Source: a virus. Taken from it: 39,885 nt of DNA. Location: positions 1 to 39,885 of IMG/VR virus record IMGVR_UViG_3300044998_000715; one strand, given 5' to 3'. How positions within the stretch are numbered: the stretch's first letter is position 1; each line of letters opens with the position of its first letter. Of the stretch, positions 3,026 through 23,854 are shown piece after piece. The notes under the pieces are model-generated. The model saw only the letters and a list, made by a program, of their open reading frames with translations. It did no database searches and was not told where the DNA came from. The position numbers and the translations under genes are program-made.

Positions 3026-4585
3026 TCAGTACCTCGCTCTGATTGGCGCCGAGATGAATCCGTCGAGGTCGCCTTCCTCAACTTCACTCGGCATCGAGCC
3101 CACGGCCATAGCGAGCGCGACCATCCCGTCGATGCGCCCTGTGGACTTGTTCTTGGCGAATTTGCGATTGCCTGCCGGGTCCATGACGACCGCAGCGTTG
3201 GCCGCGCACATGCGCAGCACAGGATGGTTGCCGTGGCGCAGCTGGCGAGCGAGCAGCCGCGACTCCAGCTCACGCAGCGCCGGCGACATGCTCACGAACC
3301 CTTGCCCGAAGTCCACGAAGCGCGCCAGCTCCTCCTCGGTGAATCCGGCGCGCTCCAGCCAAGGTCGCAGGAAGCGCATGTTGTATCGGTCGAACGCGAG
3401 CGCACGCACGTCGCAGCGATCGAAGATGCCGCGCAGGTACTCGGCGATGAACTCGTACTGGATGGCGCGCCCAGGCGTCGTCAACAGGTGGCCTTGCTGC
3501 GCCCACACGTCGTACGGCGCCCGCGCCTCGCGCGCCTTGTCGACCAGCCCCTCAGCCGGCAACCAGAACGTCGGCACGACGGACCCCGAGCGCGACACCA
3601 GCACCAGCGCACACAGATCGGACACAGAAGCGAGGTCCAGCCCACCGAACACTTCTTCGCCCTCGATCGCATCCGGCTCGCCGCCGTTCTCGTCCCACAC
3701 CTCTCTCGACACAAATGGCGCGTTGGTCTCGACGCGCTGGTTGAGGTTCAGGTTGCGGAATGTGGGCGCGAAGCTCGGCATGCGCTGCGCTTTCTCTGCA
3801 AGCCGGCGCAGATCGTCCAGCGAGCGGAACTTGCCGACCGCCGGGTTGGCGGCGCGCCACGCCTCCTCGTCGAGCAAGTCGCAGTCCTTCGGCGCCTCGT
3901 ACACGTGCAGCACGATGGTCGGATCGCCGCTGGTGCGTGCGTCGTCAATCCATATCGAGAACAGGTCGGAGTCGCTCGCGGCTTGCGTCGAGATGGCCAG
4001 CAGCAGCGGCCGATCGTGCGCGCCTTGCGACGTCTCGATCGCGTCCACGAAGTCGTCTTGCGACCCCTTCACCTGCCCAACCTCATCGAGGATCGCGACC
4101 ACCGGCGACAGGCCGTGCGCGGTCTTCGCCTCGGCGGAGATGGCGCGGTACTCGACGTTGCGCGGCAAGCCGACGATGATCTTGCTGGACGGAACGATGC
4201 GCGTGATGCGCGCCAGCCGCGGCTCCATCGCGATCATCTTCGTCATGAGCTTGAAGACGAGCGCAGCCTGATCGCGCGAGCGCGCGCCGCTGATGATCTG
4301 CGAGTTCTGCTCGGCCACAGGCCCGACGATGTGCGCAAGCACGATGCCGGCGATGAGCGCAGTCTTCCCGTTCTTGCGCGCGATGGACAGGTACGCGCGA
4401 TTCGTGCCGTGCGGGTTGTCGTAAACGTCGAGGATGAACCTGCGCTGGAATGGCTCCAGCACGATCCGCTCGCCGACGTTCTTGCCTTCAGGAACGCGGC
4501 AGTACTCTTCAATGAACGCAACGACCTTCTCGCCGCGAGTCATCTTCTCGATCGGCTTCGTCCTCGGCGCAACCCTGCGGCTCAT
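3026..4585 (-). CDS. terL: Terminase large subunit (Terminase_1, HK97 type)
   Basis: This 519-residue packaging motor couples ATP hydrolysis to DNA translocation and cuts concatemers. The N-terminal ATPase has a Walker A-like ARKNGKT (about residues 69-75) and Walker B VVAILDE (about 162-168). The C-terminal RNase H-like nuclease shows acidic residues in GGLDLASVSDL, ALAFDRYN and STGRIDGMVALAMA. The frame is open 102 codons further upstream across the small subunit gene, but that part is Arg/Ala-rich shadow sequence; ATG 4585 (MSRRVAPRTK) lies 2 bases after the small subunit stop. The family and the adjacent HNH gene suggest cos-type packaging. Confidence 0.96.
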   Translation of the reverse strand: MSRRVAPRTKPIEKMTRGEKVVAFIEEYCRVPEGKNVGERIVLEPFQRRFILDVYDNPHGTNRAYLSIARKNGKTALIAGIVLAHIVGPVAEQNSQIISGARSRDQAALVFKLMTKMIAMEPRLARITRIVPSSKIIVGLPRNVEYRAISAEAKTAHGLSPVVAILDEVGQVKGSQDDFVDAIETSQGAHDRPLLLAISTQAASDSDLFSIWIDDARTSGDPTIVLHVYEAPKDCDLLDEEAWRAANPAVGKFRSLDDLRRLAEKAQRMPSFAPTFRNLNLNQRVETNAPFVSREVWDENGGEPDAIEGEEVFGGLDLASVSDLCALVLVSRSGSVVPTFWLPAEGLVDKAREARAPYDVWAQQGHLLTTPGRAIQYEFIAEYLRGIFDRCDVRALAFDRYNMRFLRPWLERAGFTEEELARFVDFGQGFVSMSPALRELESRLLARQLRHGNHPVLRMCAANAAVVMDPAGNRKFAKNKSTGRIDGMVALAMAVGSMPSEVEEGDLDGFISAPIRARY

Positions 4586-4587
4586 GT

Positions 4588-5049
4588 TCAACTCGCGAGC
4601 AACGATTCGCTGGCCAGCTGCTCGCGAACCTTGCGCGCGGCCTTCAGTGTGCTTTGTCGCTTCTTCGCGTCGGCAGGATCGTCTGTGGCGACGAGGCCCA
4701 AGGCGCGCATTAGCGCGAGCTGCCGACGCGTCGCCTGCTCGATCATCGTCAGCAACGGATTCGGCCGCGGAGTCGCGTTGGGCGCGACGAACACGACTGG
4801 CTCTTCGAGTTCCATCTGCGCCGACCACTCCTCGATGTCGGCTTGTGTGCGAGCGAGCTGCGCAGCCGCGACAAGCTGAACCTCCAGCCACTCGTCTCGC
4901 GGCTTGTTCGCGACGATCGCATCCCAGTACGGGCGGTCTTTCGGCCGCAGCGTGATGTGTTTCGGCGGCTCGGCCAGGCCCTTCGCCGCGTCAATGAACG
5001 CCTGCGCCGCGCCAGCAACAGTGTCGGATGAACGGACTCGTTTCGGCAT
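4588..5049 (-). CDS. terS: Terminase small subunit
   Basis: A 153-residue protein directly ahead of the large subunit, the place of the DNA-recognition subunit of HK97-like terminases. It has HITLRPKDRPYWDAIVANKP followed by WLEVQLVAAAQLARTQADIE, a pattern seen in P27/HK97-type small terminases, then a helical region ending in Lys/Arg-rich sequence. I see no obvious Shine-Dalgarno before ATG 5049, so translation may depend on read-through coupling from the HNH gene 15 bases upstream. Function rests on position and weak family resemblance. Confidence 0.85.
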   Translation of the reverse strand: MPKRVRSSDTVAGAAQAFIDAAKGLAEPPKHITLRPKDRPYWDAIVANKPRDEWLEVQLVAAAQLARTQADIEEWSAQMELEEPVVFVAPNATPRPNPLLTMIEQATRRQLALMRALGLVATDDPADAKKRQSTLKAARKVREQLASESLLAS

Positions 5050-5064: not shown

Positions 5065-5490
5065 TCAAAAATGATGGGGCGGGCGGTTTCCTGTGTGGCG
5101 AGTGTTCGACTTTTTTGCCGCCCCTCCTGCTTGCGCCCACGGATGGCGAGGATCTGTCGGATCGCCGCGAACATCGCAGCCGCGTGGCGCAGTGTTCAAG
5201 TCCTCGGCAGTTTTCATTCTGTGATGAGGGGTGCACAGAAGATCCATATTCCGATCTTCGTTCGTTCCGCCATTAATCAAAGCCACGCGATGGTCCAGCT
5301 CGACACCGGCGACAACCCGGCCTTCTGCCCAACACATCGGACACAACGGGCGCAGCAGCCGCACCCGCTCCTTTTGCGCAAGCAGTCTCCGCCCTCGTAG
5401 CCGCTCCACCATGGGCGAATTCTCCCCGAAGACGCCGCGCTTGCGGTGCCGCGTGTGTGCCGAGCGCAGCCGCGCTGGTGTTCGCGCCAT
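5065..5490 (-). CDS. HNH endonuclease next to terminase
   Basis: The core has a CPMCW zinc pair, the HNH strand VELDHRVALINGGTNEDRN and the closing LLCTPHHRMKT with the second cysteine and histidines. Such small HNH proteins sit beside HK97-type terminases and, in HK97, work with the terminase at cos cleavage. ATG 5490 is chosen because codons 1-26 keep high GC at third positions; an alternative start at ATG 5412 has the better Shine-Dalgarno (GGGGAGAA, 9 bases away) and would give 115 residues. The N-terminus is rich in Arg and His. Its promoter is probably in the AT-rich island just upstream. Confidence 0.9.
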   Translation of the reverse strand: MARTPARLRSAHTRHRKRGVFGENSPMVERLRGRRLLAQKERVRLLRPLCPMCWAEGRVVAGVELDHRVALINGGTNEDRNMDLLCTPHHRMKTAEDLNTAPRGCDVRGDPTDPRHPWAQAGGAAKKSNTRHTGNRPPHHF

Positions 5491-5506
5491 AAATCGTTCT
5501 TGATTA

Positions 5507-5625
5507 CGACCCGAGATGCCCGAGATGCCCGACTTCTCCTATTGTTGTCCCCTACGTAATTAAAATAATTTATTTTCGTATAATCAAACAATGCTAATCT
5601 TGGGCATCTCGGGCATCTCGGGTCG
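5507..5625. repeat. Perfect 24-bp inverted repeat framing an AT-rich island (candidate ori, cos or control site)
   Basis: The left arm is 5507-5530 and the right arm 5602-5625; they are exact reverse complements, 71 bases apart. Each arm holds two tandem copies of the 9-mer GGGCATCTC (or its complement GAGATGCCC), so four 9-mers point inward and outward symmetrically. The spacer is the most AT-rich place in the window: 5551-5600 has 11 G or C in 50. At its centre is the palindrome aaaataatttatttt (5562-5576). It separates the helicase gene from the HNH-terminase operon. The layout resembles iterons flanking an unwinding element, but a regulator site, a cos region or a late promoter region are equally possible. 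Confidence 0.85.
5563..5591 (-). promoter_or_regulatory. Possible late promoter on the minus strand in the AT-rich island
   Basis: Reading the minus strand there is TTGTTT (5591-5586), then 17 or 18 bases, then TTATTT or TATTTT around 5568-5562. This is a weak match to a sigma70 promoter but is the only AT-rich segment upstream of the HNH-terminase-head operon. A perfect TATAAT on the plus strand (5579-5584) has no matching -35 and no plus-strand gene after it. Confidence 0.3.
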
Positions 5626-5678
5626 AGTCTGACTCAATAAATCGCGAATCGATCCTCGACGAAGCGCACAGCGCGCGG

Positions 5679-7175
5679 CTACGCTGGTTCCTTCTGCGCG
5701 GCGACGAGCTCCCGGCCGCGGCGTTGCACCGCGGCGTCGCACGCCACCGCGTCACGCATCATCTCTTCTCTCACGAAGGCCAGCCGCGACCTGAACACTT
5801 TCCCTCCTTCACGGAACACCCACCGTTCGCCGTCCGGGCTGCGGCGCAGCATGTAGCCTTCCTTGCGCATCCTGTGCGCGATCTTGCGCGGCGACTTCAG
5901 CATCGCCACGATCTCGTCTTGGTCGTCGAAGGCATGATCCACCAGCTCCTGCCCGAAGAACACCGCAGGACGGCCGAGCTTTTCCAGCGCGTGCGTCACC
6001 GCATCGTCGGGCGCGCCCCACGACCCGGCCACGGCTTCCCAACCCGCGGTGCGCTCGACCTGGCGCTTGGGGTCGAAGCGTGAGATGTCGCGCTCGAAGA
6101 GCCACCGCGCGACGTGCCCGAACCCGCCTTCGTGCTCCAGCCACCGGAAGTAGCGGTCGAAGTACTGCGGGTCGTGGCGCGGCGAGTCGGGGTCGAGGTG
6201 CCACTTCGACGGCAGCGACGAGTGCATCACGAACATGCGCCGGTCCTCTGGCGGGATGTACATGTCCATCCAGTCGTTGGTCGTGATGAACACGCGCAGG
6301 ACGTTCACCACGTATCGCAGCCTCTGATACTTGTCGTTCAATGGCAGCGTGTTCGGTGGCGCGGCGATGAGCGGCTTGAGGATGTTGTACATCGTCGAGG
6401 CGTGGTACTCGTCGCGCGACGGCCGTACCTCGTCGATCGTGAGCATGAGCGTTTGCAGCCACGGCTGGTAAGGCGAGAACAGCGCGTCAGGCTCGATGCC
6501 CTTGTGATTCCAGTCGCCCACCGCGGCTTTCACTGCGACGAGCGCAGCATCCTTGCCGATGCCTTGTGTGCCAGAGAGCACGATCGCGGCGTTGCACTTC
6601 TCGTGCGGGCGCTGCACCATGTGCGCGCAGTAGTCGAAGAAGAAGTTGTGCTCCTTCTCCTCGCTCCACAGCAGCTTCACGTGCTCGACCCAAGGGCCGG
6701 CCTTCGAGGCGTCGCCCCGCGGCTCGGGCGGAGGGCGGTACTGGTTGAACGATCGGCGCCCCTTCGCAGGGTAGAAGCCGTCCTTGTCAATGAACCAGTC
6801 CTTGATGATCTTGGGCTTGCCTGGCCACCAGGTTGACCCTTCGACAAGCTGATCGTTCTCCACGCGCATGATCTCCTGCGATGGGCGCACCAGTGTTTCG
6901 CGTCGGCGTCGAGGTCGCCCACGCCGCCGCGGCGCGTCGGGCTGCGGCTCGGGGTCGCCTTCTTCGACGATCACTGTCCACTCGCTGCGCGGAATCTTCG
7001 CGTCGACCGACTTCTCTGAGTGAAGGGTGTTGTCTTGAATGTCCCAGAATGCCTCTTGCTGCGTGTCGTAAACGAAGTCCTCAATGCGCGCCATGCGGCG
7101 CTGGTCGTCCAGTCTTTCAAGCAGCTCGCGCTCACGTTCGGCTGCGCGCCGTTCAATGTCGTCTGGTTGTGTCAT
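5679..7175 (-). CDS. Replicative helicase, SF3-like primase-associated ATPase (DUF5906/VirE-like) with AT-hook
   Basis: A 498-residue AAA+-type ATPase. Walker A is GTQGIGKD (about residues 202-209), Walker B is MLTIDEVRPSRDEYH, and the FITTNDWMDMYIPPEDRRMF segment supplies the sensor-1 Asn and arginine finger region typical of phage SF3/DUF5906 helicases that work with PrimPol primases. A basic RRRGRPRRRR stretch at about residues 83-92 is a textbook AT-hook (RGRP core), a minor-groove binder of AT-rich DNA. ATG 7175 is preferred over GTG 7178 because AAGGAG lies 4 bases before it; it overlaps the primase stop as TGATG. An AT-rich repeat lies directly downstream. Confidence 0.88.
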   Translation of the reverse strand: MTQPDDIERRAAERERELLERLDDQRRMARIEDFVYDTQQEAFWDIQDNTLHSEKSVDAKIPRSEWTVIVEEGDPEPQPDAPRRRGRPRRRRETLVRPSQEIMRVENDQLVEGSTWWPGKPKIIKDWFIDKDGFYPAKGRRSFNQYRPPPEPRGDASKAGPWVEHVKLLWSEEKEHNFFFDYCAHMVQRPHEKCNAAIVLSGTQGIGKDAALVAVKAAVGDWNHKGIEPDALFSPYQPWLQTLMLTIDEVRPSRDEYHASTMYNILKPLIAAPPNTLPLNDKYQRLRYVVNVLRVFITTNDWMDMYIPPEDRRMFVMHSSLPSKWHLDPDSPRHDPQYFDRYFRWLEHEGGFGHVARWLFERDISRFDPKRQVERTAGWEAVAGSWGAPDDAVTHALEKLGRPAVFFGQELVDHAFDDQDEIVAMLKSPRKIAHRMRKEGYMLRRSPDGERWVFREGGKVFRSRLAFVREEMMRDAVACDAAVQRRGRELVAAQKEPA

Positions 7176-8113
7176 CACGCTCCTTCTGTCGCTGCGTCAT
7201 TGGCCGCGGCCAACTGCTCCGCCGCCTCATTGTCGATCCAGTCGGTCAGCTCCGCCCAGCCCTTGCCGGCACAGTGGCCATGGTGGCAGCGGAACGCGCC
7301 GTAAAAACCATTCTCCTCGCTGGGCTCACGCACCGCGGCGCCGGTGTCCGCGGCGCCAGTGTGCTGGTGGACCCATGGGCAAGTCATCTCCGTCCACCCG
7401 CTCGGGTCTGGGCGATCGCGCTTGAGCATGCCGGCGGCGCGCAGCCAGCGGTAGTACATTGCGAACGCTTTGTTGCGCTCCACAGCGTCCTCCGGCACCA
7501 GCCGGCCGCGCCACTGCCTGCGCCCCATGATCTCCAGCTCGAAGGCGCCCAGCAACTCGTCGATCGAGTACCTGCGGCCGGTGAGCTCGCGCAGCTCGCA
7601 CCGCCAGCCTCGGTGCTTGGGCTTGCCGTTCAGGAAGCCTGGCACTCGCCCCACACGCGTGACGCCGCTCATGCCTGGGTCGGCGCCGAGCAACTTGCCG
7701 GCGATGAAGGCGCGGATCACCCCATCGAACCTCGCGGCGTCGCGCTCAGGCTCGGCCAGGAAGTACCACCACTGGAAGTTGCCTGCGCTCGTCTCCACGA
7801 TCGCGCTCGGCGGCACGCCGCGCACCACCACAAGGTCAACCTTCGTGCCCACGTCGTCGACCATCAGCGCGCGCCCCGCGGCGAACGTCTCGTTGCGGCG
7901 GCGGAACGTGTTGTCTGCGGCGCGACGGAAGCTGCTGACGGTGACGTACACGTTGCACTGCGCCGAGAAGGGCAATCGATCGCCCAGCGCCCATGGTCGA
8001 GGTCGCCACGCTCGGTGGTCTACCGCATCCGGGTCGCCGATGAACCCGCACAGCACAAGCCGTTCGTCGTCGGGCAGCCCTTCGCCCAGGCAGTTCATGA
8101 ATTCTGTGGACAA
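7175..8113 (-). CDS. PrimPol/RepB-type DNA primase with C-terminal zinc-binding segment
   Basis: A 312-residue protein. The core shows the archaeo-eukaryotic primase pattern of RepB-like phage primases: ALMVDDVGTKVDL with an acidic pair (about residues 86-87), ETSAGNFQWWYFL, and GVTRVGRVPGFLNGKP. Near the C-terminus Cys and His residues in EMTCPWVHQHTG and FRCHHGHC may bind zinc. I start at TTG 8113 because GAGGAG lies 6 bases before it; ATG 8098 is too far from that site and the upstream frame to 8191 enters the promoter/leader region. It is translationally coupled to the helicase, with which it should start phage DNA synthesis. Confidence 0.85.
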   Translation of the reverse strand: MSTEFMNCLGEGLPDDERLVLCGFIGDPDAVDHRAWRPRPWALGDRLPFSAQCNVYVTVSSFRRAADNTFRRRNETFAAGRALMVDDVGTKVDLVVVRGVPPSAIVETSAGNFQWWYFLAEPERDAARFDGVIRAFIAGKLLGADPGMSGVTRVGRVPGFLNGKPKHRGWRCELRELTGRRYSIDELLGAFELEIMGRRQWRGRLVPEDAVERNKAFAMYYRWLRAAGMLKRDRPDPSGWTEMTCPWVHQHTGAADTGAAVREPSEENGFYGAFRCHHGHCAGKGWAELTDWIDNEAAEQLAAANDAATEGA

Positions 8114-8132
8114 GACGTTCTCCTCAAGAGGG

Positions 8133-8163
8133 GCGCCGATTTTCGGGCCGCTAGGATCGGCGC
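8133..8163 (-). promoter_or_regulatory. Leader hairpin upstream of the primase gene
   Basis: GCGCCGAT at 8133-8140 and ATCGGCGC at 8156-8163 are perfect inverted arms with a 15-base loop. In the minus-strand transcript this hairpin would end about 9 bases before the GAGGAG site of the primase gene. I could not find a convincing minus-strand promoter before it. A role in leader stability or translation control is inference. Confidence 0.4.
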
Positions 8164-8182
8164 AGGGACAGGCCGGTCGGCG

Positions 8183-8273
8183 AAAGACCAACCGTTTTGC
8201 AGGGTCTTTGAAGAAAGTGCTTGACTTCGTTCTGGACTTGAGTCACAATTCGTTCATCGTCGAGTTGACGATG
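8183..8273 (+). promoter_or_regulatory. Promoter-leader cassette 1 (TTGACT-N17-CACAAT plus start-site hairpin)
   Basis: The -35 is TTGACT (8221-8226), the spacer 17 bases, the -10 CACAAT (8244-8249). Five bases further on, at the predicted transcript start, is the hairpin CATCGTC-gagtt-GACGATG (8255-8273). Upstream, AAAGACC (8183-8189) and GGTCTTT (8203-8209) form a second hairpin. A GAAAGGA ribosome site precedes the gene at 8297. This is one of five clear copies plus one diverged copy in the window, and it lies between the divergent primase and early operons. Confidence 0.85.
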
Positions 8274-8296
8274 CAGAGAGCAGAAAGGATTCCGCC

Positions 8297-8548: not shown

Positions 8549-8770
8549 ATGATCCACTTTCACAACGCACACGTCACCGCGCGAGCCCAGCACCACCTCG
8601 ACCAGCTGACCGCGTACCTGAAGGCCCGCTCGCGCCCCGACGCCGAGGCGTACCGGCCGACGCGGCTGATGGCCGAGTACTGGGGCCGTCTCGCGACGCT
8701 GGAGGTGCTGCGCCCGATCGCCGCCGACTTCAACTTGCCGCTGCCGCAGCAGCCGCGCCGGCCGGTGTGA
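8549..8770 (+). CDS. Hypothetical early protein, 73 aa
   Basis: Unrecognised 73-residue protein, with a likely helical middle (ARAQHHLDQLTAYLKARSRP) and a Pro-rich end (LPLPQQPRRPV). AAGGA lies 9 bases before ATG 8549, 15 bases after the previous stop, so both genes share the transcript from cassette 1. Its stop is followed within 11 bases by the upstream arm of cassette 2. Confidence 0.75.
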   Translation: MIHFHNAHVTARAQHHLDQLTAYLKARSRPDAEAYRPTRLMAEYWGRLATLEVLRPIAADFNLPLPQQPRRPV

Positions 8771-8780
8771 AAACCCTTCG

Positions 8781-8859
8781 CCGCGGCAGGTCTTTGCAGA
8801 AAGTGCTTGCCGCGGCGCCAGACTTGAGCCATAATTCGTTCATCGTCGAGTTGACGATG
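8781..8859 (+). promoter_or_regulatory. Promoter-leader cassette 2 (TTGCCG-N17-CATAAT plus start-site hairpin)
   Basis: The -35 is TTGCCG (8807-8812) and the -10 CATAAT (8830-8835), 17 bases apart. The leader hairpin CATCGTC-gagtt-GACGATG is at 8841-8859. The -35 lies in the 3' arm of an inverted repeat: CCGCGGCA (8781-8788) and TGCCGCGG (8808-8815). The ribosome site AAGGA (8871-8875) serves the gene at 8883. Confidence 0.88.
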
Positions 8860-8882
8860 CAGAGAGCAGAAAGGAACCCGCC

Positions 8883-9078: not shown

Positions 9079-9834
9079 ATGAACACCACCGAAACCACCG
9101 ACGCCGGCCTGCTGCGCCGCATTGCCAAGCTGCTGGCGATCGCCGGCGACCATCGCGCCGACCCGAACGAAGCCGCTGCCGCTGCCGCGATGGCGGAACG
9201 CATCATGCGCAAGCACCAGATCGAGCACGCCGAGGTGCTCACCGCATCGCTCGCGCGCAACGAGGAAGAGATGGCCACGGCCGACGTCGAGACGCGCATC
9301 AAGACCGGCGAGAAGTACCCCCGCCCGCCGTCCTCGGTGCCGATCTGGGGCCAGTGGATCGCAGTCGCGGTCGCGAAGCTCCACGACTGCGAGGTGCGCT
9401 ACGGGTGGTGCCCGCGCCGCGGCAAGGTCATCCGCCTGTTCGGCGTCGCCGCCGACGTGCAGGTTGCCTCGTGGACCATCGACTACATCGTGGCGTCGCT
9501 CGTCGCCTCCAGCCGCGCCTGGCACGCCGCTGCGCCGCGCAGCAAGGCCGACGGCGACAGTTTCCGCAAGGGCTACGCCCAAGCTGTGTGCGCGAAGATC
9601 GCCGACATGCGCCGCGAGCGTCAGGCGTCGCCCCAGATGAACGCGCTGGTCGTCTCGAAGTCGCAGGCCATCGCTCGCGCCTTCGGCGAGTTCAACTACG
9701 GCAAGGCGCGCGCAGCCAACATCACGTCACACTTCGCCGCGGCAGCTGGCTACGCCGCAGGCGCGTCGCTCGACCTCGCACGCCGCGGCGTCGGCCGCTC
9801 GGGCGGCGACTCGACGAAGCTGTTGGGCCGCTAA
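9079..9834 (+). CDS. DUF2786-domain protein (early)
   Basis: A 251-residue protein. The N-terminal part, LLRRIAKLLAIAGDHRADPN then EAAAAAAMAERIMRKHQIEH, is the DUF2786 pattern (helical, about residues 11-50) seen in many phage and plasmid proteins. The rest, with VPIWGQWIAVAVAKLHDCEV, FGVAADVQVASWTIDYIVAS and GDSFRKGYAQAVCAKI, follows the usual C-terminal companion domain (DUF7168-like). No catalytic motif is obvious and the biochemical role is unknown. AAGGA lies before ATG 9079; the gene probably shares the cassette 2 transcript. Confidence 0.85.
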   Translation: MNTTETTDAGLLRRIAKLLAIAGDHRADPNEAAAAAAMAERIMRKHQIEHAEVLTASLARNEEEMATADVETRIKTGEKYPRPPSSVPIWGQWIAVAVAKLHDCEVRYGWCPRRGKVIRLFGVAADVQVASWTIDYIVASLVASSRAWHAAAPRSKADGDSFRKGYAQAVCAKIADMRRERQASPQMNALVVSKSQAIARAFGEFNYGKARAANITSHFAAAAGYAAGASLDLARRGVGRSGGDSTKLLGR

Positions 9835-9843
9835 AACCCTTCG

Positions 9844-9922
9844 CCGCGGCAGGTCTTTGAAGAAAGTGCTTGCCGCGGCGCCAGACTTCGGTCATAATTC
9901 GTTCATCGTCGAGTTGACGATG
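9844..9922 (+). promoter_or_regulatory. Promoter-leader cassette 3 (TTGCCG-N17-CATAAT plus start-site hairpin)
   Basis: The -35 is TTGCCG (9870-9875), the -10 CATAAT (9893-9898). The leader hairpin CATCGTC-gagtt-GACGATG is at 9904-9922. The upstream inverted repeat is CCGCGGCA (9844-9851) with TGCCGCGG (9871-9878). It begins 9 bases after the stop of the DUF2786 gene. AAGGA (9934-9938) serves ATG 9947. Confidence 0.88.
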
Positions 9923-9946
9923 TTGAACGCAGAAAGGAACCTCGCC

Positions 9947-10358: not shown

Positions 10359-11105
10359 ATGAGCAACATCACTCTCCCTGTCGCCGTCGACACGCCCGTT
10401 CCTGCGCCGAAGATGTCGAGCCGCTACGTCCACATCAACACTCGCCAGGTCTTGAACGTCCTCGCCGAAGAAGGCTTCGAGGTCGCCGGCGTCATGAGCG
10501 TGCGCCCGCGCGCGGCCGACCCGCTGTACGCGCGGCATGCGGTCGACCTGCGCCACCCCGACATGCCCAAGCTCGGCGATGGTGTGCCGCGCATCGTCTT
10601 CAGCAACAGCCACGACGGCAGCGCGCGCGCGAGCGTCATGGCCGGCGTCTTCCGATTCGTGTGCACCAACGGCATGGTCGTCGGCAGCACCTACGCCAAC
10701 GAGCGCGTCGTCCACGCCGGCGAGTCGGCCCGCACCCTCATCGACCGCATTCGCCATCTCGCCCGCAACACCGCGCCGCTGTTCAAGCAGATCGAGTCGT
10801 GGCAGCGCAAGCAGCTGACCGACGCCGCGGCGCGTGAGTACGCGCGGCTGGCGGCGACGCTGCGCTGGGGCGACCCGCATCGCTTCGAGCCGGAACAGCT
10901 GCTGGAGGTGCGCCGCGCCGACGACGAAGGCAACGACCTGTGGCGCGTCTTCAACCGCGTCCAGGAAGCCACGACGCGACTGAAGCTGCCCGGCGTGGCG
11001 CGCTCCGGCCGCGCCACGCGCAGCGCGCCGCTGAACGAGTTGAGCGCCAACCTGCGCTTCAACCAGCAGCTGTGGCAGCTGACAGAGGAATTCGCTGGCG
11101 CGTGA
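10359..11105 (+). CDS. DUF932-family protein (phage/plasmid-like)
   Basis: A 248-residue protein with the DUF932 pattern: SSRYVHINTRQVLNVLAEEG near the start, then PRIVFSNSHDGSARASVMAG and VFRFVCTNGMVVGSTYANER, the conserved core with its Phe-Cys-Thr-Asn-Gly turn, followed by a helical C-terminal half. This family is common on phages, plasmids and conjugative elements; its molecular role is not established. AAGGAG before ATG 10359. It lies between cassettes 3 and 4. Confidence 0.87.
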   Translation: MSNITLPVAVDTPVPAPKMSSRYVHINTRQVLNVLAEEGFEVAGVMSVRPRAADPLYARHAVDLRHPDMPKLGDGVPRIVFSNSHDGSARASVMAGVFRFVCTNGMVVGSTYANERVVHAGESARTLIDRIRHLARNTAPLFKQIESWQRKQLTDAAAREYARLAATLRWGDPHRFEPEQLLEVRRADDEGNDLWRVFNRVQEATTRLKLPGVARSGRATRSAPLNELSANLRFNQQLWQLTEEFAGA

Positions 11106-11112
11106 TTCCTCT

Positions 11113-11191
11113 GCGCTCGGCACGTGCTTGAAAAGGTGCTTGCCGAGCGCGCCAGATTCAGGCATCATTCGTTCGTCGTCGAGTTGACGAC
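11113..11191 (+). promoter_or_regulatory. Promoter-leader cassette 4 (TTGCCG-N17-CATCAT plus start-site hairpin)
   Basis: The -35 is TTGCCG (11140-11145), the -10 CATCAT (11163-11168). The leader hairpin is GTCGTC-gagtt-GACGAC (11175-11191): relative to copies 1-3 an A-T pair has become G-C on both arms. The upstream repeat has also changed on both arms, to GCGCTCGGCA (11113-11122) with TGCCGAGCGC (11141-11150). AAGGA (11204-11208) serves ATG 11216. Confidence 0.85.
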
Positions 11192-11215
11192 TTGAAAGCC
11201 AGAAAGGAACCAGAC

Positions 11216-15847: not shown

Positions 15848-16366
15848 ATGACAAGACGATTCTTCATTGAGCAAGTCGCTTTGTGCCCCAAAGACCCGAA
15901 GGCTGCGATCGAGCTGCTCAAGGCGCTTGGGCTGGAGGCGTGGGCGCACGACACTGTTGTTGCAGCAGGCAAGGTCTACGGCGAGGAGCGCACGAACGTC
16001 GCCGCGCTGGCCTTCAACTACCAGGCTTCGCGTGGACTTGGCGACAACTTCCTGGGCGACAGCTTCCTGGACAGCGACGCGCGCCCCATCGAGCTGGAGG
16101 TGCTCCACTACCGTGCCGGCAACAACTGGATGGAAGAGCGCCCGCCGAGCGTCAGCCACATCGGCATGCACTGCACAGAAAGTGAACTCGAAGAGTGGCG
16201 GCGCTTGTTGCGGTCGATGGGCTACTGCGTGGCGCAGGAGGTCTTCACCGAAAGCCACACCAACCCAGTCATCGCCGGCAAGAGGCTGTACCACTACGTC
16301 ATCTTCGACACGCGAGACGTCTTGGGTGTGGACCTGAAGTTCATCGTGCGCAGGGAGGTCGGCTGA
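15848..16366 (+). CDS. VOC-fold (glyoxalase/dioxygenase-like) protein
   Basis: A 172-residue protein with two similar halves, as in the vicinal-oxygen-chelate fold. The second half is clearest: SVSHIGMHCTESELEEWRRL, then LLRSMGYCVAQEVFTESHTN and RLYHYVIFDTRDVLGVDLKF. Candidate metal ligands are Glu82 or Glu84 (IELEVLHY), His104 and His149, with an acidic residue near 162. VOC proteins include glyoxalase I, dioxygenases and metal-free binding proteins, so activity is open. It lies between the SDR and exonuclease genes in one tightly packed operon, ending in a TGATG overlap. Confidence 0.72.
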   Translation: MTRRFFIEQVALCPKDPKAAIELLKALGLEAWAHDTVVAAGKVYGEERTNVAALAFNYQASRGLGDNFLGDSFLDSDARPIELEVLHYRAGNNWMEERPPSVSHIGMHCTESELEEWRRLLRSMGYCVAQEVFTESHTNPVIAGKRLYHYVIFDTRDVLGVDLKFIVRREVG

Positions 16367-16914
16367 TGAGCGCGTTGATGATCGTTTACGACACCGAAAC
16401 GACCGGGCTGACCTTGCACCCGGACGCCGACATTCGCAAGCAGCCGCGCATCATTGAATTCGGCGCCGTGCTGCTGCGGCTCGACGACGGCAGCATCGAG
16501 GAGGAAGTCGAGATCATGGTCGACCCTCGCGAAAGTCTGTCCGAAGAGATCACCAAGATCACCGGCATCACTGACGCAGACCTCGTTGGCGCGCCGAGCT
16601 TCGAGGAGGTGTTGCCGCAACTGCGCCGGCTGTTCGGCTCGGCCGCGGCCGTGGCGGCGCACAACTTGCCCTTCGACAAGGCGATGATCCTGGCTGAACT
16701 CGCGCGAGCGGGCGTGACGGACTTCCCCTGGCCGGCGCGCGAGCTTTGCACCGTGGCAACGTACAAGGAGTCCTGGGGTCGCAACCCGAAGCTCATCGAG
16801 CTGTACGCCGCTATACTGGGCAAGCCGCTGGCGCAGACGCACCGCGCGCTCGACGACGTGAAGGCGCTCGTCGAGATCATCCGCGCCGAGCGGCTGTGGG
16901 AGCTTGTGCTGTGA
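16366..16914 (+). CDS. DnaQ-like 3'-5' exonuclease (DEDDh)
   Basis: A 182-residue proofreading-type exonuclease. ExoI is VYDTETTGL (Asp9, Glu11), ExoII AHNLPFDKA (Asp104), ExoIII HRALDDVKA with His159 and Asp164, so the DEDDh set is complete. It lies just before a DnaE-type polymerase, which lacks an exonuclease of its own, so it probably acts as the epsilon-like partner. ATG 16366 overlaps the VOC stop (TGATG). Codons upstream in this frame are a shadow of the VOC gene. Confidence 0.92.
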   Translation: MSALMIVYDTETTGLTLHPDADIRKQPRIIEFGAVLLRLDDGSIEEEVEIMVDPRESLSEEITKITGITDADLVGAPSFEEVLPQLRRLFGSAAAVAAHNLPFDKAMILAELARAGVTDFPWPARELCTVATYKESWGRNPKLIELYAAILGKPLAQTHRALDDVKALVEIIRAERLWELVL

Positions 16915-17180
16915 GTCGCTGGCCGACGGCGCAGGCGATCGCCTCCATCAAGGAAGTCGCCGTGCAGGACTTGGCGACGCTGCGCGCATTCGTGGACGCG
17001 GCGCTGCCCCACCTCGACCCGCAGTACGCGGCGACGCTGGACGAGGCGATGACGAGCGTGGAGACGTTCGCGGCCGTCGCGCTGCGCGTCTTCGCCAAGG
17101 CCAACCACTCGAAGATCAAGGACGCCATGATGCTCGTCGAGATTCAGGCGCGCATGGATGGGAAGAAGGTGTTTGAATGA
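16911..17180 (+). CDS. Hypothetical protein, 89 aa, between exonuclease and polymerase
   Basis: A short helical protein (SRWPTAQAIASIKEVAVQDL through AMMLVEIQARMDGKKVFE). It starts at GTG 16911 in a GTGA overlap with the exonuclease stop and ends in an ATGA overlap with the polymerase start, so all three are probably made together. The frame continues upstream to ATG 16746, but that part is shadow sequence. I do not recognise it; a small accessory subunit linking exonuclease and polymerase would fit the position, but that is only a guess. Confidence 0.7.
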   Translation: MSRWPTAQAIASIKEVAVQDLATLRAFVDAALPHLDPQYAATLDEAMTSVETFAAVALRVFAKANHSKIKDAMMLVEIQARMDGKKVFE

Positions 17181-19975
17181 GCACGACGCTTCCTCAGTTG
17201 CGCGTGCGCACCGAGTTCAGCTTCCGCGACGCCTTCGGGCCGGTGCCGCGCGTCGCCGCCGCGCTGGCCGAGCTGGGGTGTCCGGCCGCAGGCATCGTCG
17301 ATCCCGGCACCTGGGGCCACGTGCGATGGGCCAGGGAGCTGGGTAGATGTGGCGTAGCGCCATTATTTGGGACGGAGCTTACCGTCGCCCAGCCCGATGG
17401 TCGCGCGCCCAAGGCATGGGTTTTGGCCCAAGACATCAGCGCCTTCTACCGCTTCAGCACGGCGACGAGGAAGAAGGGCGCCGACTTGCCGGCGCTGCTG
17501 CGCGAGTCGCGCGGCATCATACGCTTCGCCGGCGCGGCGCTGACCGACCCAGAAACGTTCGACTACATCGACCTGAACCCGGCTTCGGCGCTCCAGCAGC
17601 GCGCCGCGCTGCGGCTGCATGAGCGCACCGGCCGGCCGCTGGTCGTCACCAGTGACAACTGGTACCCGCGCCCGCGCGATCGCTCCGCGTTCATCGCCAT
17701 GGGCGGGCGCGAGAACGTCACACCGCAGCACATCCTCTCCATCGACGAGTTGCGCGCGGCGCTGCGGTGCCTGACTCCGGCGCAATTCGACGCGGCTGTG
17801 GCCAACGCGCACGAAGTTGCCGCGCGCTGCGCCACCGCGCTGCCCAAGGCGCCCATCATCCACGTCGAAGGTGACTTGCGCGCGCTCGCCGAAGCAGGCA
17901 AGCAGCGGCGCCTCGCGCTCGGGCACTTGACTGCGTGGCCGCAAGAGTACGAGGCGCGACTGCAGCGCGAGCTGGAGGTCGTCGAGGCGAAGGGATTCGA
18001 GAGCTACTTCCTGGTCGTGGCCGATATGATCATGTGGGCGAAGCAGCGCATGCTCGTTGGCCCTGGCCGCGGCTCGTCGGCCGGCTCGCTGCTTTGCTAC
18101 TGCATCGGCATCACCGAGGTCGACCCGATCCCGCACGGACTCTTGTTCGAACGATTCATCGACCTGACACGCAAGGACTTGCCCGACATCGACGTCGACT
18201 TCAACGACACGAAGCGCGAGCAGGTCTTCGACTACCTGATCCAGCGCTACGGCCGCGAGAACGTCGCGCGCATCGGCAGCATCAACACACTCAAGCCGCG
18301 CAGCGTGCTCGCCGGCGTGTGCAAGCGATTCGGCATCTCGGACGCCGAGCGGTTCAACTTGCTCAATGTGCTGATTGAGTACTCGTCGGGCGACTCGCGC
18401 TACGGCAAGGGCCTCGAAGACACACTCAGCAACACAGACGTCGGCAAGGCATTCATGGCGCGCCACCCCAAGGCTGCGGTCATGGGCGAGATCGAGAATC
18501 ACGCCAGCCACACAGGCGTGCATGCCGCGGGCGTGATTGTCTCGAACGTGCGCCTGGATGACTACTGCACTGTGCAAGAAGACGGCGTGGCGCAGATCGA
18601 CAAGCCGGATGCCGAAGAGCTGAACCTGCTCAAGATCGACGCGCTTGGGCTACGCACGCTGGGCGTGCTGGAGGATGCCGGCGTCGCCACCAACGACGAG
18701 CTGTACGCGCTGAGACTCGACGACCCAGAGGTGCTGCGCGTCTTCAATGAAAGGCGCTACGGCGCCATCTTCCAGTTTGAAGGGCAGGCCCAGCGCGCCA
18801 TCAGCCGAGAAGTCTTCGTCGATTCGTTCCGAACCATCGACCACCTCACCGCGCTGGCCAGGCCTGGGCCGTTGGGCGGCGGCGCCACAGACAAGTACAT
18901 TGCGCGCAAGGCTGGGCGCGAAGAGGTCAAGACGACGCACCCACGTCTCACAGAGATGCTGGCCGACACCTACGGGGTCGTCTTGTACCAAGAGCAGGTC
19001 ATGCGCATCGTTCGCGAGATCGGCAAGTTCTCGTGGGAAGACACCACCGTCATCCGCAAGGCTATGTCCGGGCGCAAGGGCAAGGAATTCTTCGACCGCA
19101 AGGGCGAGCAGTTCATCGAGGGCGCCGCGCATGACGGCATCTCGCCAGACGATGCGCGCGCGATCTGGAATGAGATCTGCTCGTTCGGCGCTTGGGGCAT
19201 GAACAAGAGCCACACGTGCGCATACTCGGTGATCAGCTACTGGTGCGCTTGGATGAAGCGTTACCACCCGCTGGAGTATGCTGCTGCGTGCTTGCGCGGC
19301 GCCAAGGACGATGACCAGGTGATGGAGGTGTTGCGGGAAGCTGTGGCCGACGGCGTGAAGTACGTCGCCTTCGACGTCGACCGCAGCGACGTTACTTGGC
19401 GCGTCATCGACGGCGAGCTTGTCGGCGGCTTCATGAACCTTGTCGGCATCGGGCCGGCGAAAGCCGCGGCAGCAGTCGAGTTGCGGCGACTTGGCAAGCT
19501 CGATCGAGAGAAGTTTTTGAAGCTCGACGTCAAGTTTGCCGACTTGTACCCTCTGAGCAACAAGTACGCCGACTTGTACGCCGACCCCGAGGCGCATGGC
19601 TGTCGGCCTGGCTCGAAGCTGCTGAAGGCCGACGAGCTGCCGCCGTCGGGCAATGTGTTGTACCTCGGCAAGCTCGTTGGCAAAAAGCTCAGAGACGCAA
19701 ACGAGGCGCTGCTGGTGACGCGGCGCGGAGGGCGAAAGATTCATGGCAACACGCTGTTCGCAGACCTCGTGTTGAAGGACGATGGCGGCGTGCCGATGAT
19801 CTGCCGCATCGATCGGTTCGACTACAACCCGACGGGCCGGCTGGCCATCGAAAATCTTGTCGTCGACAAGGATGTGCTGTTGGTGCGCGGTCGCCGTGTG
19901 CCGAATTTTCAGATGATCAAGGTTGAGCGGATCAAGTGCTTGACGAACCCGGAGGCGTTGCATGAGACTTCCTGA
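17177..19975 (+). CDS. DNA polymerase III alpha subunit-like replicative polymerase (DnaE family)
   Basis: A 932-residue family C polymerase. The palm has PGRGSSAGSLLCYCIGI and the catalytic DLPDIDVDF; the fingers have TYGVVLYQEQVMRI and FGAWGMNKSHTCAYSVISYW; a helix-hairpin-helix follows (NLVGIGPAKAAAAV). The N-terminal PHP domain is present but degenerate: RVRTEFSF replaces the His-rich HxH strand and VDPGTWG replaces the usual Asp-His-Gly, so metal binding is probably lost. It is shorter than bacterial DnaE (about 1160), with little C-terminal region for clamp-loader contact. Starts in an ATGA overlap; its 3' end overlaps the nuclease gene by 14 bases. Confidence 0.95.
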   Translation: MSTTLPQLRVRTEFSFRDAFGPVPRVAAALAELGCPAAGIVDPGTWGHVRWARELGRCGVAPLFGTELTVAQPDGRAPKAWVLAQDISAFYRFSTATRKKGADLPALLRESRGIIRFAGAALTDPETFDYIDLNPASALQQRAALRLHERTGRPLVVTSDNWYPRPRDRSAFIAMGGRENVTPQHILSIDELRAALRCLTPAQFDAAVANAHEVAARCATALPKAPIIHVEGDLRALAEAGKQRRLALGHLTAWPQEYEARLQRELEVVEAKGFESYFLVVADMIMWAKQRMLVGPGRGSSAGSLLCYCIGITEVDPIPHGLLFERFIDLTRKDLPDIDVDFNDTKREQVFDYLIQRYGRENVARIGSINTLKPRSVLAGVCKRFGISDAERFNLLNVLIEYSSGDSRYGKGLEDTLSNTDVGKAFMARHPKAAVMGEIENHASHTGVHAAGVIVSNVRLDDYCTVQEDGVAQIDKPDAEELNLLKIDALGLRTLGVLEDAGVATNDELYALRLDDPEVLRVFNERRYGAIFQFEGQAQRAISREVFVDSFRTIDHLTALARPGPLGGGATDKYIARKAGREEVKTTHPRLTEMLADTYGVVLYQEQVMRIVREIGKFSWEDTTVIRKAMSGRKGKEFFDRKGEQFIEGAAHDGISPDDARAIWNEICSFGAWGMNKSHTCAYSVISYWCAWMKRYHPLEYAAACLRGAKDDDQVMEVLREAVADGVKYVAFDVDRSDVTWRVIDGELVGGFMNLVGIGPAKAAAAVELRRLGKLDREKFLKLDVKFADLYPLSNKYADLYADPEAHGCRPGSKLLKADELPPSGNVLYLGKLVGKKLRDANEALLVTRRGGRKIHGNTLFADLVLKDDGGVPMICRIDRFDYNPTGRLAIENLVVDKDVLLVRGRRVPNFQMIKVERIKCLTNPEALHETS

Positions 19976-23750: not shown

Positions 23751-23854
23751 AGGCAAGCGCAAAGACCTTGCCCGCAAAACGGTCTTTGCAAGAGGCGCTT
23801 GCCTTGCGCGCCAGATTCGAGCACAATTCGTCCATCGGTCAAAGACGGCCGATG
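23751..23854 (+). promoter_or_regulatory. Promoter-leader cassette 5 (TTGCCT-N17-CACAAT plus start-site hairpin)
   Basis: The -35 is TTGCCT (23799-23804) and the -10 CACAAT (23822-23827). The leader hairpin has a new stem, CATCGG (23833-23838) with CCGATG (23849-23854). The upstream repeat is AGGCAAGCGC (23751-23760) with GCGCTTGCCT (23795-23804), and a second hairpin, GCAAAGACC (23759-23767) with GGTCTTTGC (23781-23789), lies between them. The latter matches the AAAGACC/GGTCTTT pair of cassette 1. It serves ATG 23893. Confidence 0.83.

Follow-up and report, generated by a model that had tools for sequence, protein, structure and literature searches.

The DNA analysed here is a 39,885-bp IMG/VR virus contig, IMGVR_UViG_3300044998_000715, taken at its full length (positions 1-39,885) and referred to below as the window. 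It carries head, portal, TerL and tail genes. On its minus strand a RepB_primase family primase (PF16793; positions 7175-8191; Pfam E=1.1e-13) precedes an SF3-type helicase (5679-7178), DUF5906-like and assigned to phrog_1156, whose C-terminal domain is winged-helix-like and which is the probable initiator of replication. Downstream on the same strand follow an HNH gene (5065-5490), TerS (phrog_5601; 4588-5049) and TerL (phrog_9; 3026-4585). The helicase stop lies at 5679, and the 188-bp gap between the helicase and HNH genes holds, immediately 3' of the helicase, an inverted repeat at 5507-5625. An earlier note, made from the window's sequence alone, had drawn attention to this element and its position between replication and packaging genes, a placement that the gene assignments bear out. 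Also encoded in the window are a 932-aa homologue of the bacterial-type DNA polymerase III alpha (17177-19975), an RNase T-like exonuclease frame (16195-16914) and Pam3 gp33/gp34-like proteins. An intergenic block of about 109 nt is repeated at 8184-8292, 8770-8878, 9833-9941 and 11103-11211, and again at 23790-23837; it lies before rightward genes, contains a sigma-70-like TTGCCG-N17-CATAAT and a ribosome-site-like end, AGAAAGGAAC, and from its sequence looks like a duplicated phage promoter/leader.

The arms of the inverted repeat, at 5507-5530 on the plus strand and 5602-5625 on the minus strand, are exact reverse complements at 24 of 24 positions around a 71-bp spacer, just as the earlier note described them. 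This is the window's longest perfect inverted repeat with a spacer of up to 2 kb, the next longest reaching 16 bp, and base composition predicts about 1.4e-7 such repeats by chance when spacers of at most 200 bp are allowed. AT content is 72% over the spacer, which does contain, as had been claimed, the most AT-rich point of the window: the 30-bp stretch at 5559 is 90% AT, against 67% for the runner-up elsewhere. The AT-rich core (5554-5584) is a probable unwinding element. It includes a 15-base odd palindrome, AAAATAATTTATTTT, at 5562-5576, which had been singled out as a central feature; the palindrome is present, but the element alignment shows that relatives do not conserve it.

Each arm belongs to a longer array of 9-bp repeats, or iterons. 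On the left, three in-phase iterons occupy 5510-5536 on the plus strand (CCCGAGATG at 5510-5518 and 5519-5527, then the imperfect CCCGACTTC at 5528-5536), and on the right three more run along the minus strand over 5596-5622 (CCCGAGATG at 5622-5614 and 5613-5605, then the imperfect CCCAAGATT at 5604-5596). With 9-mers scored in phase, each side therefore has two perfect iterons and one imperfect, innermost iteron, and the two sides are mutually inverted. The four symmetric sites first reported, two tandem 9-mers per arm, are thus real, but they are part of a larger set of 3+3. All four copies of the 12-mer CCCGAGATGCCC found in the window lie within the element. Inward of each iteron set, and on the same strand as that set, lies ATTGTT (5541-5546 on the plus strand, 5592-5587 on the minus strand). 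The corresponding inner motifs are CTATTGTTG at 5539-5547 (plus), which relatives conserve within GGAGAGAAGAATAGGA as read on the other strand, and GCATTGTTTG at 5585-5594 (minus), which relatives conserve as TAATTGTTKGAT; both are possible priming sites.

The helicase next to the element has its closest solved sequence relative in the SF3 helicase ring of NrS-1 (6k9c/6k9e; E=4e-7 with a helicase profile). An AlphaFold2 model (mean pLDDT 74) matches in fold the C-terminal region of NrS-1, SaPI PriRep1 on dsDNA and other D5-type viral helicases. The Foldseek match to PriRep1 (7pds) has a probability of 1.00 and an E of 2e-6 at about 15% identity, and the relationship to SaPI Rep is a remote one only. 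The C-terminal 115 residues are modelled as a domain at pLDDT 87 with the winged-helix order of elements. Its matches to the PDB are weak, the better ones being mostly winged-helix DNA-binding proteins, and the PDB matches listed for it include no domain from SaPI, P4 or pRN1.

Relatives of the helicase were collected from 38 IMG/VR loci, and the flank following the helicase was extracted from each. All loci were then searched with a profile HMM built on the element, together with a second, broader model. The element recurs in uncultivated phages whose helicase is closely related to the one beside it in the window. When the window is left out of the training set, the HMM still detects the window's copy, at E=1e-24 in one orientation and at 2e-17 on the opposite strand, a double match that mirror symmetry leads one to expect. 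Because many loci with the helicase are close kin, counts among them overstate independence. In most, the element directly follows the helicase, but it lies one gene further away in L018, L023-L025 and L028, and in L021 and L045 it is 3-4 kb from the helicase, on the other strand, adjoining the terminase genes. The idea that the element always adjoins the helicase was dropped on account of these last two loci. In L012, L022 and L030-L032 the sequence ends before the whole element is visible, and L029 has iteron-like CCCGAGTT repeats after the helicase with no confident match to the element HMM. The metagenome contigs of L012, L032, L064, L067 and L069 end within or near the element; assembly could have broken off at the inverted repeats, or strains could differ locally.

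The earlier note had proposed looking for the 9-mers in related phages, and had named an absence of conserved arms in close relatives among the grounds for abandoning its reading. The iterons are conserved in relatives, whereas the exact complementarity of the arms is not. Iteron sequence drifts (CCCGAGATT, ACCAAGATT, CCCAAGATT, CCTGAGAA, CCCGAGATN), ACCAAGATT being the L003 type, and the strongest period in most arms is 9 bp. Beyond this family, plasmids and cultured phages yielded only distant relatives of the helicase, and five phages with such a distant helicase that were scanned (L167-L171) show no comparable inverted repeat near it. No helicase relative was found in genome contigs, the first 24 kb of the window have no near match in cultured phages, and viral contigs searched for exact 21-mers showed three single matches, none with a convincing element.

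Does the element belong with the replication genes on one side or with the packaging genes on the other? A natural module swap bears directly on this question. Locus L148 aligns with window positions 5421-1, covering HNH-TerS-TerL and head genes, at 91.3% DNA identity (96% for TerL), and across the wrap with 39885-38479 at 92.4%. Its homology to the window stops inside the HNH gene; the primase and helicase genes have given way to unrelated ones, and L148 has no element. The swap assigns the element to the replication module despite its placement in L021 and L045.

Between its two aligned segments L148 has 564 bp with no counterpart in the window (L148 7627-8190); about 0.56 kb, in which the major capsid protein gene ends, is therefore missing from the window contig. 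The alignment across the wrap also indicates that the window genome is probably circularly permuted or circular. Another contig, L003 (40,461 bp), has an exact 127-bp end overlap and is probably a complete circular assembly.

A second terminase family, of the L041 type, gives the same picture. Among 22 loci with at least 4.3 kb of upstream sequence, the element is present in all five that have a close helicase and in none of the other 17, although kinship among many of the loci means that the formal p of 4e-5 overstates independence. L102 and L115, both among the 17, have a distantly related primase-helicase. At the corresponding place, between the gene for it and the terminase genes, they carry another kind of AT-rich inverted-repeat element, AACGTGGTAA...TTACCACGTT (L102 4151-4252; L115 3936-4037), containing GAGGAGAATATAGGGAAAATC, which resembles the conserved inner motif of the main family. 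More widely, the terminases that adjoin the element represent clearly different modules and unrelated families. Comparison across these genomes shows that the phages share a homologous element, made of inverted iterons mostly in 9-bp phase around an AT-rich core, which goes with this helicase family whatever the packaging genes.

Of the alternatives to a replication role, control of transcription survives best, and we consider it unlikely; the element would then stand between the replication and late operons as a late promoter or a switch, its repeats resembling operators. The element does lie directly upstream of the terminase or late operon in every locus mapped, as a switch between helicase and late operons, one of the roles originally suggested, would have it, and in L018, L021, L028 and L045 it sits between divergent genes. 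Initiators that repress or activate at their own origin are common among replicons, and origin and switch roles could coexist. A switch is disfavoured by the lack of any sigma-70-like promoter in window positions 5300-5800 and by L148, where only the replication module has been exchanged and the element is lost although the same late genes are kept. The AT-rich core and near mirror symmetry on both strands also exceed what an operator needs.

Packaging would make the element a cos or pac site that TerS recognizes and that is cut with help from the HNH enzyme. Its position upstream of HNH and two genes before TerS and TerL fits this, as does its staying upstream of the terminase genes in L021 and L045 though the helicase has moved. 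A packaging site should be kept together with the terminase/HNH module; L148 instead shares that module without the element, the element adjoins unrelated terminase families, and loci with a related terminase but without such a helicase do not have it. The suggestion of a cos or terminase binding site is contradicted by these data and is now very improbable. The ends of contig L005 point elsewhere too. This relative's contig (40,893 bp) starts 57 bp before TerS (L052 1-57) and ends just after HNH (L053), with no end overlap, which suggests packaging ends in the HNH-TerS gap and makes a cos site there probable. The L148 swap, the L041-type test, the variety of terminases and these ends all assign the element to the replication module.

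A hairpin or cruciform, whether a pRN1-like stem-loop origin, a terminator or a small insertion bounded by terminal inverted repeats, finds some encouragement in the perfect arms of the window, in the long arms of L013 and L016 and in the 100-nt stem-loop that pRN1 requires 3' of its primase-helicase gene (PMC4234260), but it is highly doubtful, since L014, L034, L036, L041 and L020 have no long complementary arms at the element and yet keep the iteron units, and the element includes no T-run terminator. Complementary arms reach at most 11 bp in several relatives, so that a long stem-loop of the pRN1 type is not conserved; with the 9-bp phase kept and arm complementarity lost, the conserved feature is a set of sites rather than a hairpin. 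Insertion of a MITE-type element was rejected: no flanking target duplication is visible, the element sequence occurs once in the window with no second occurrence, and relatives carry a homologous element.

Together, these comparisons make it very probable that the element is a cis-acting replication origin recognized by the phage's own SF3-type helicase-initiator. An origin built of iterons and an unwinding element had been among the roles first proposed, and it is supported by the way the element tracks the helicase across unrelated terminases and by its absence from L148. GC skew is uninformative as a locator of the origin, because the cumulative extreme does not fall at the element and the sign of GC3 skew mostly follows gene orientation.

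A mechanism can be proposed on this basis. The C-terminal domains of the helicase would bind the 3+3 inverted iterons, and two opposed helicase hexamers would be loaded either at the AT-rich core or across it. Once melted, the core would expose one inner ATTGTT-type site on each strand, and the adjacent RepB-family primase would start a primer on each strand, possibly at these inner motifs. Two forks would then depart in opposite directions, extended by the phage DNA polymerase III alpha homologue, by host proteins or by both.

A close parallel to such an origin comes from satellites. In PICI, two iteron sets flank an AT-rich region immediately 3' of rep, and the authors who described this arrangement knew of no other bacterial replicon organized in the same way (PMC6092414). 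The window element likewise has two iteron sets around an AT-rich region, next to the initiator helicase gene (in SaPI/PICI usually immediately 3' of it) and with a primase gene upstream (PMC6092414, PMC7581432). For origins of the SaPI/PICI type it is the C-terminal domain of Rep that binds the iterons, and rep together with ori drives the replication of a plasmid. It also takes the SaPI/PICI position immediately 3' of the helicase, although this is not universal in the family, as L021 and L045 differ. The predicted fold of the helicase, with its match to SaPI PriRep1 bound to dsDNA (7pds), extends the likeness to the protein. Unlike in SaPI/PICI, the window's iterons are strictly inverted with 9-bp phasing, there is a conserved ATTGTT-type inner motif per strand, the primase is a separate RepB-family protein and the element is sometimes separated from the helicase gene. 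The element also lies in a phage with its own capsid and terminase genes, whereas a PICI is a satellite island without capsid genes of its own. Having its own capsid genes, the window is a phage and not a PICI, and the likeness claimed is that the origin works like that of a PICI, not that it belongs to one.

Other systems share parts of the design. The alpha protein of P4, acting at ori/crr, is both a primase and an SF3-type helicase and binds origin repeats through a winged-helix domain at its C terminus (PMC4234260), but its primase is of the Toprim type and part of one polypeptide, whereas the window's is a separate PF16793 gene. In pRN1 (ORF904) and phage BIP-1 the gene for the primase-helicase is followed directly by a putative stem-loop origin. 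A long stem-loop is essential in pRN1, which is described as having no iterons (PMC4234260), whereas the phages compared here conserve the iterons but not the stem. RSF1010 oriV (RepA/RepB'/RepC) offers a RepB_primase family primase, iterons and priming on both strands (PMC4234260), and the window's primase does belong to this RepB'-type family by its PF16793 match; RSF1010, whose oriV is also marked by ssiA/ssiB stem-loops, differs in using three proteins with RepC as the iteron binder, and in the family of its helicase. The NrS-1 polymerase has one 8-nt recognition site per strand near the genome centre (PMC7102993), but it is a fused polymerase-helicase (prim-pol plus SF3 helicase), and the part of its description drawn on here mentions no inverted iterons around an AT core.

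By analogy, then, the element would represent a PICI-like origin design in full-size phages, a variant of a design known from satellites. We advance more tentatively, as a possibility still short of even, that a family of tailed full-size phages uses a mirror-symmetric "double hexamer" origin, in which an SF3 helicase reads inverted 9-bp iterons and each strand has a separate priming motif for a RepB-type primase, and that the primase-helicase-origin cassette is swapped whole between phages as a plug-in replicon, as the PICI replicon is among satellites but in a free-living form. In uncultivated phages the origin is seldom located, and here comparative evidence points to an element of about 120 bp. 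The comparison also names a probable initiator and, through a natural module swap, separates the element from packaging. Such a design in full phages would extend the PICI-type origin and bear on the source of satellite replicons.
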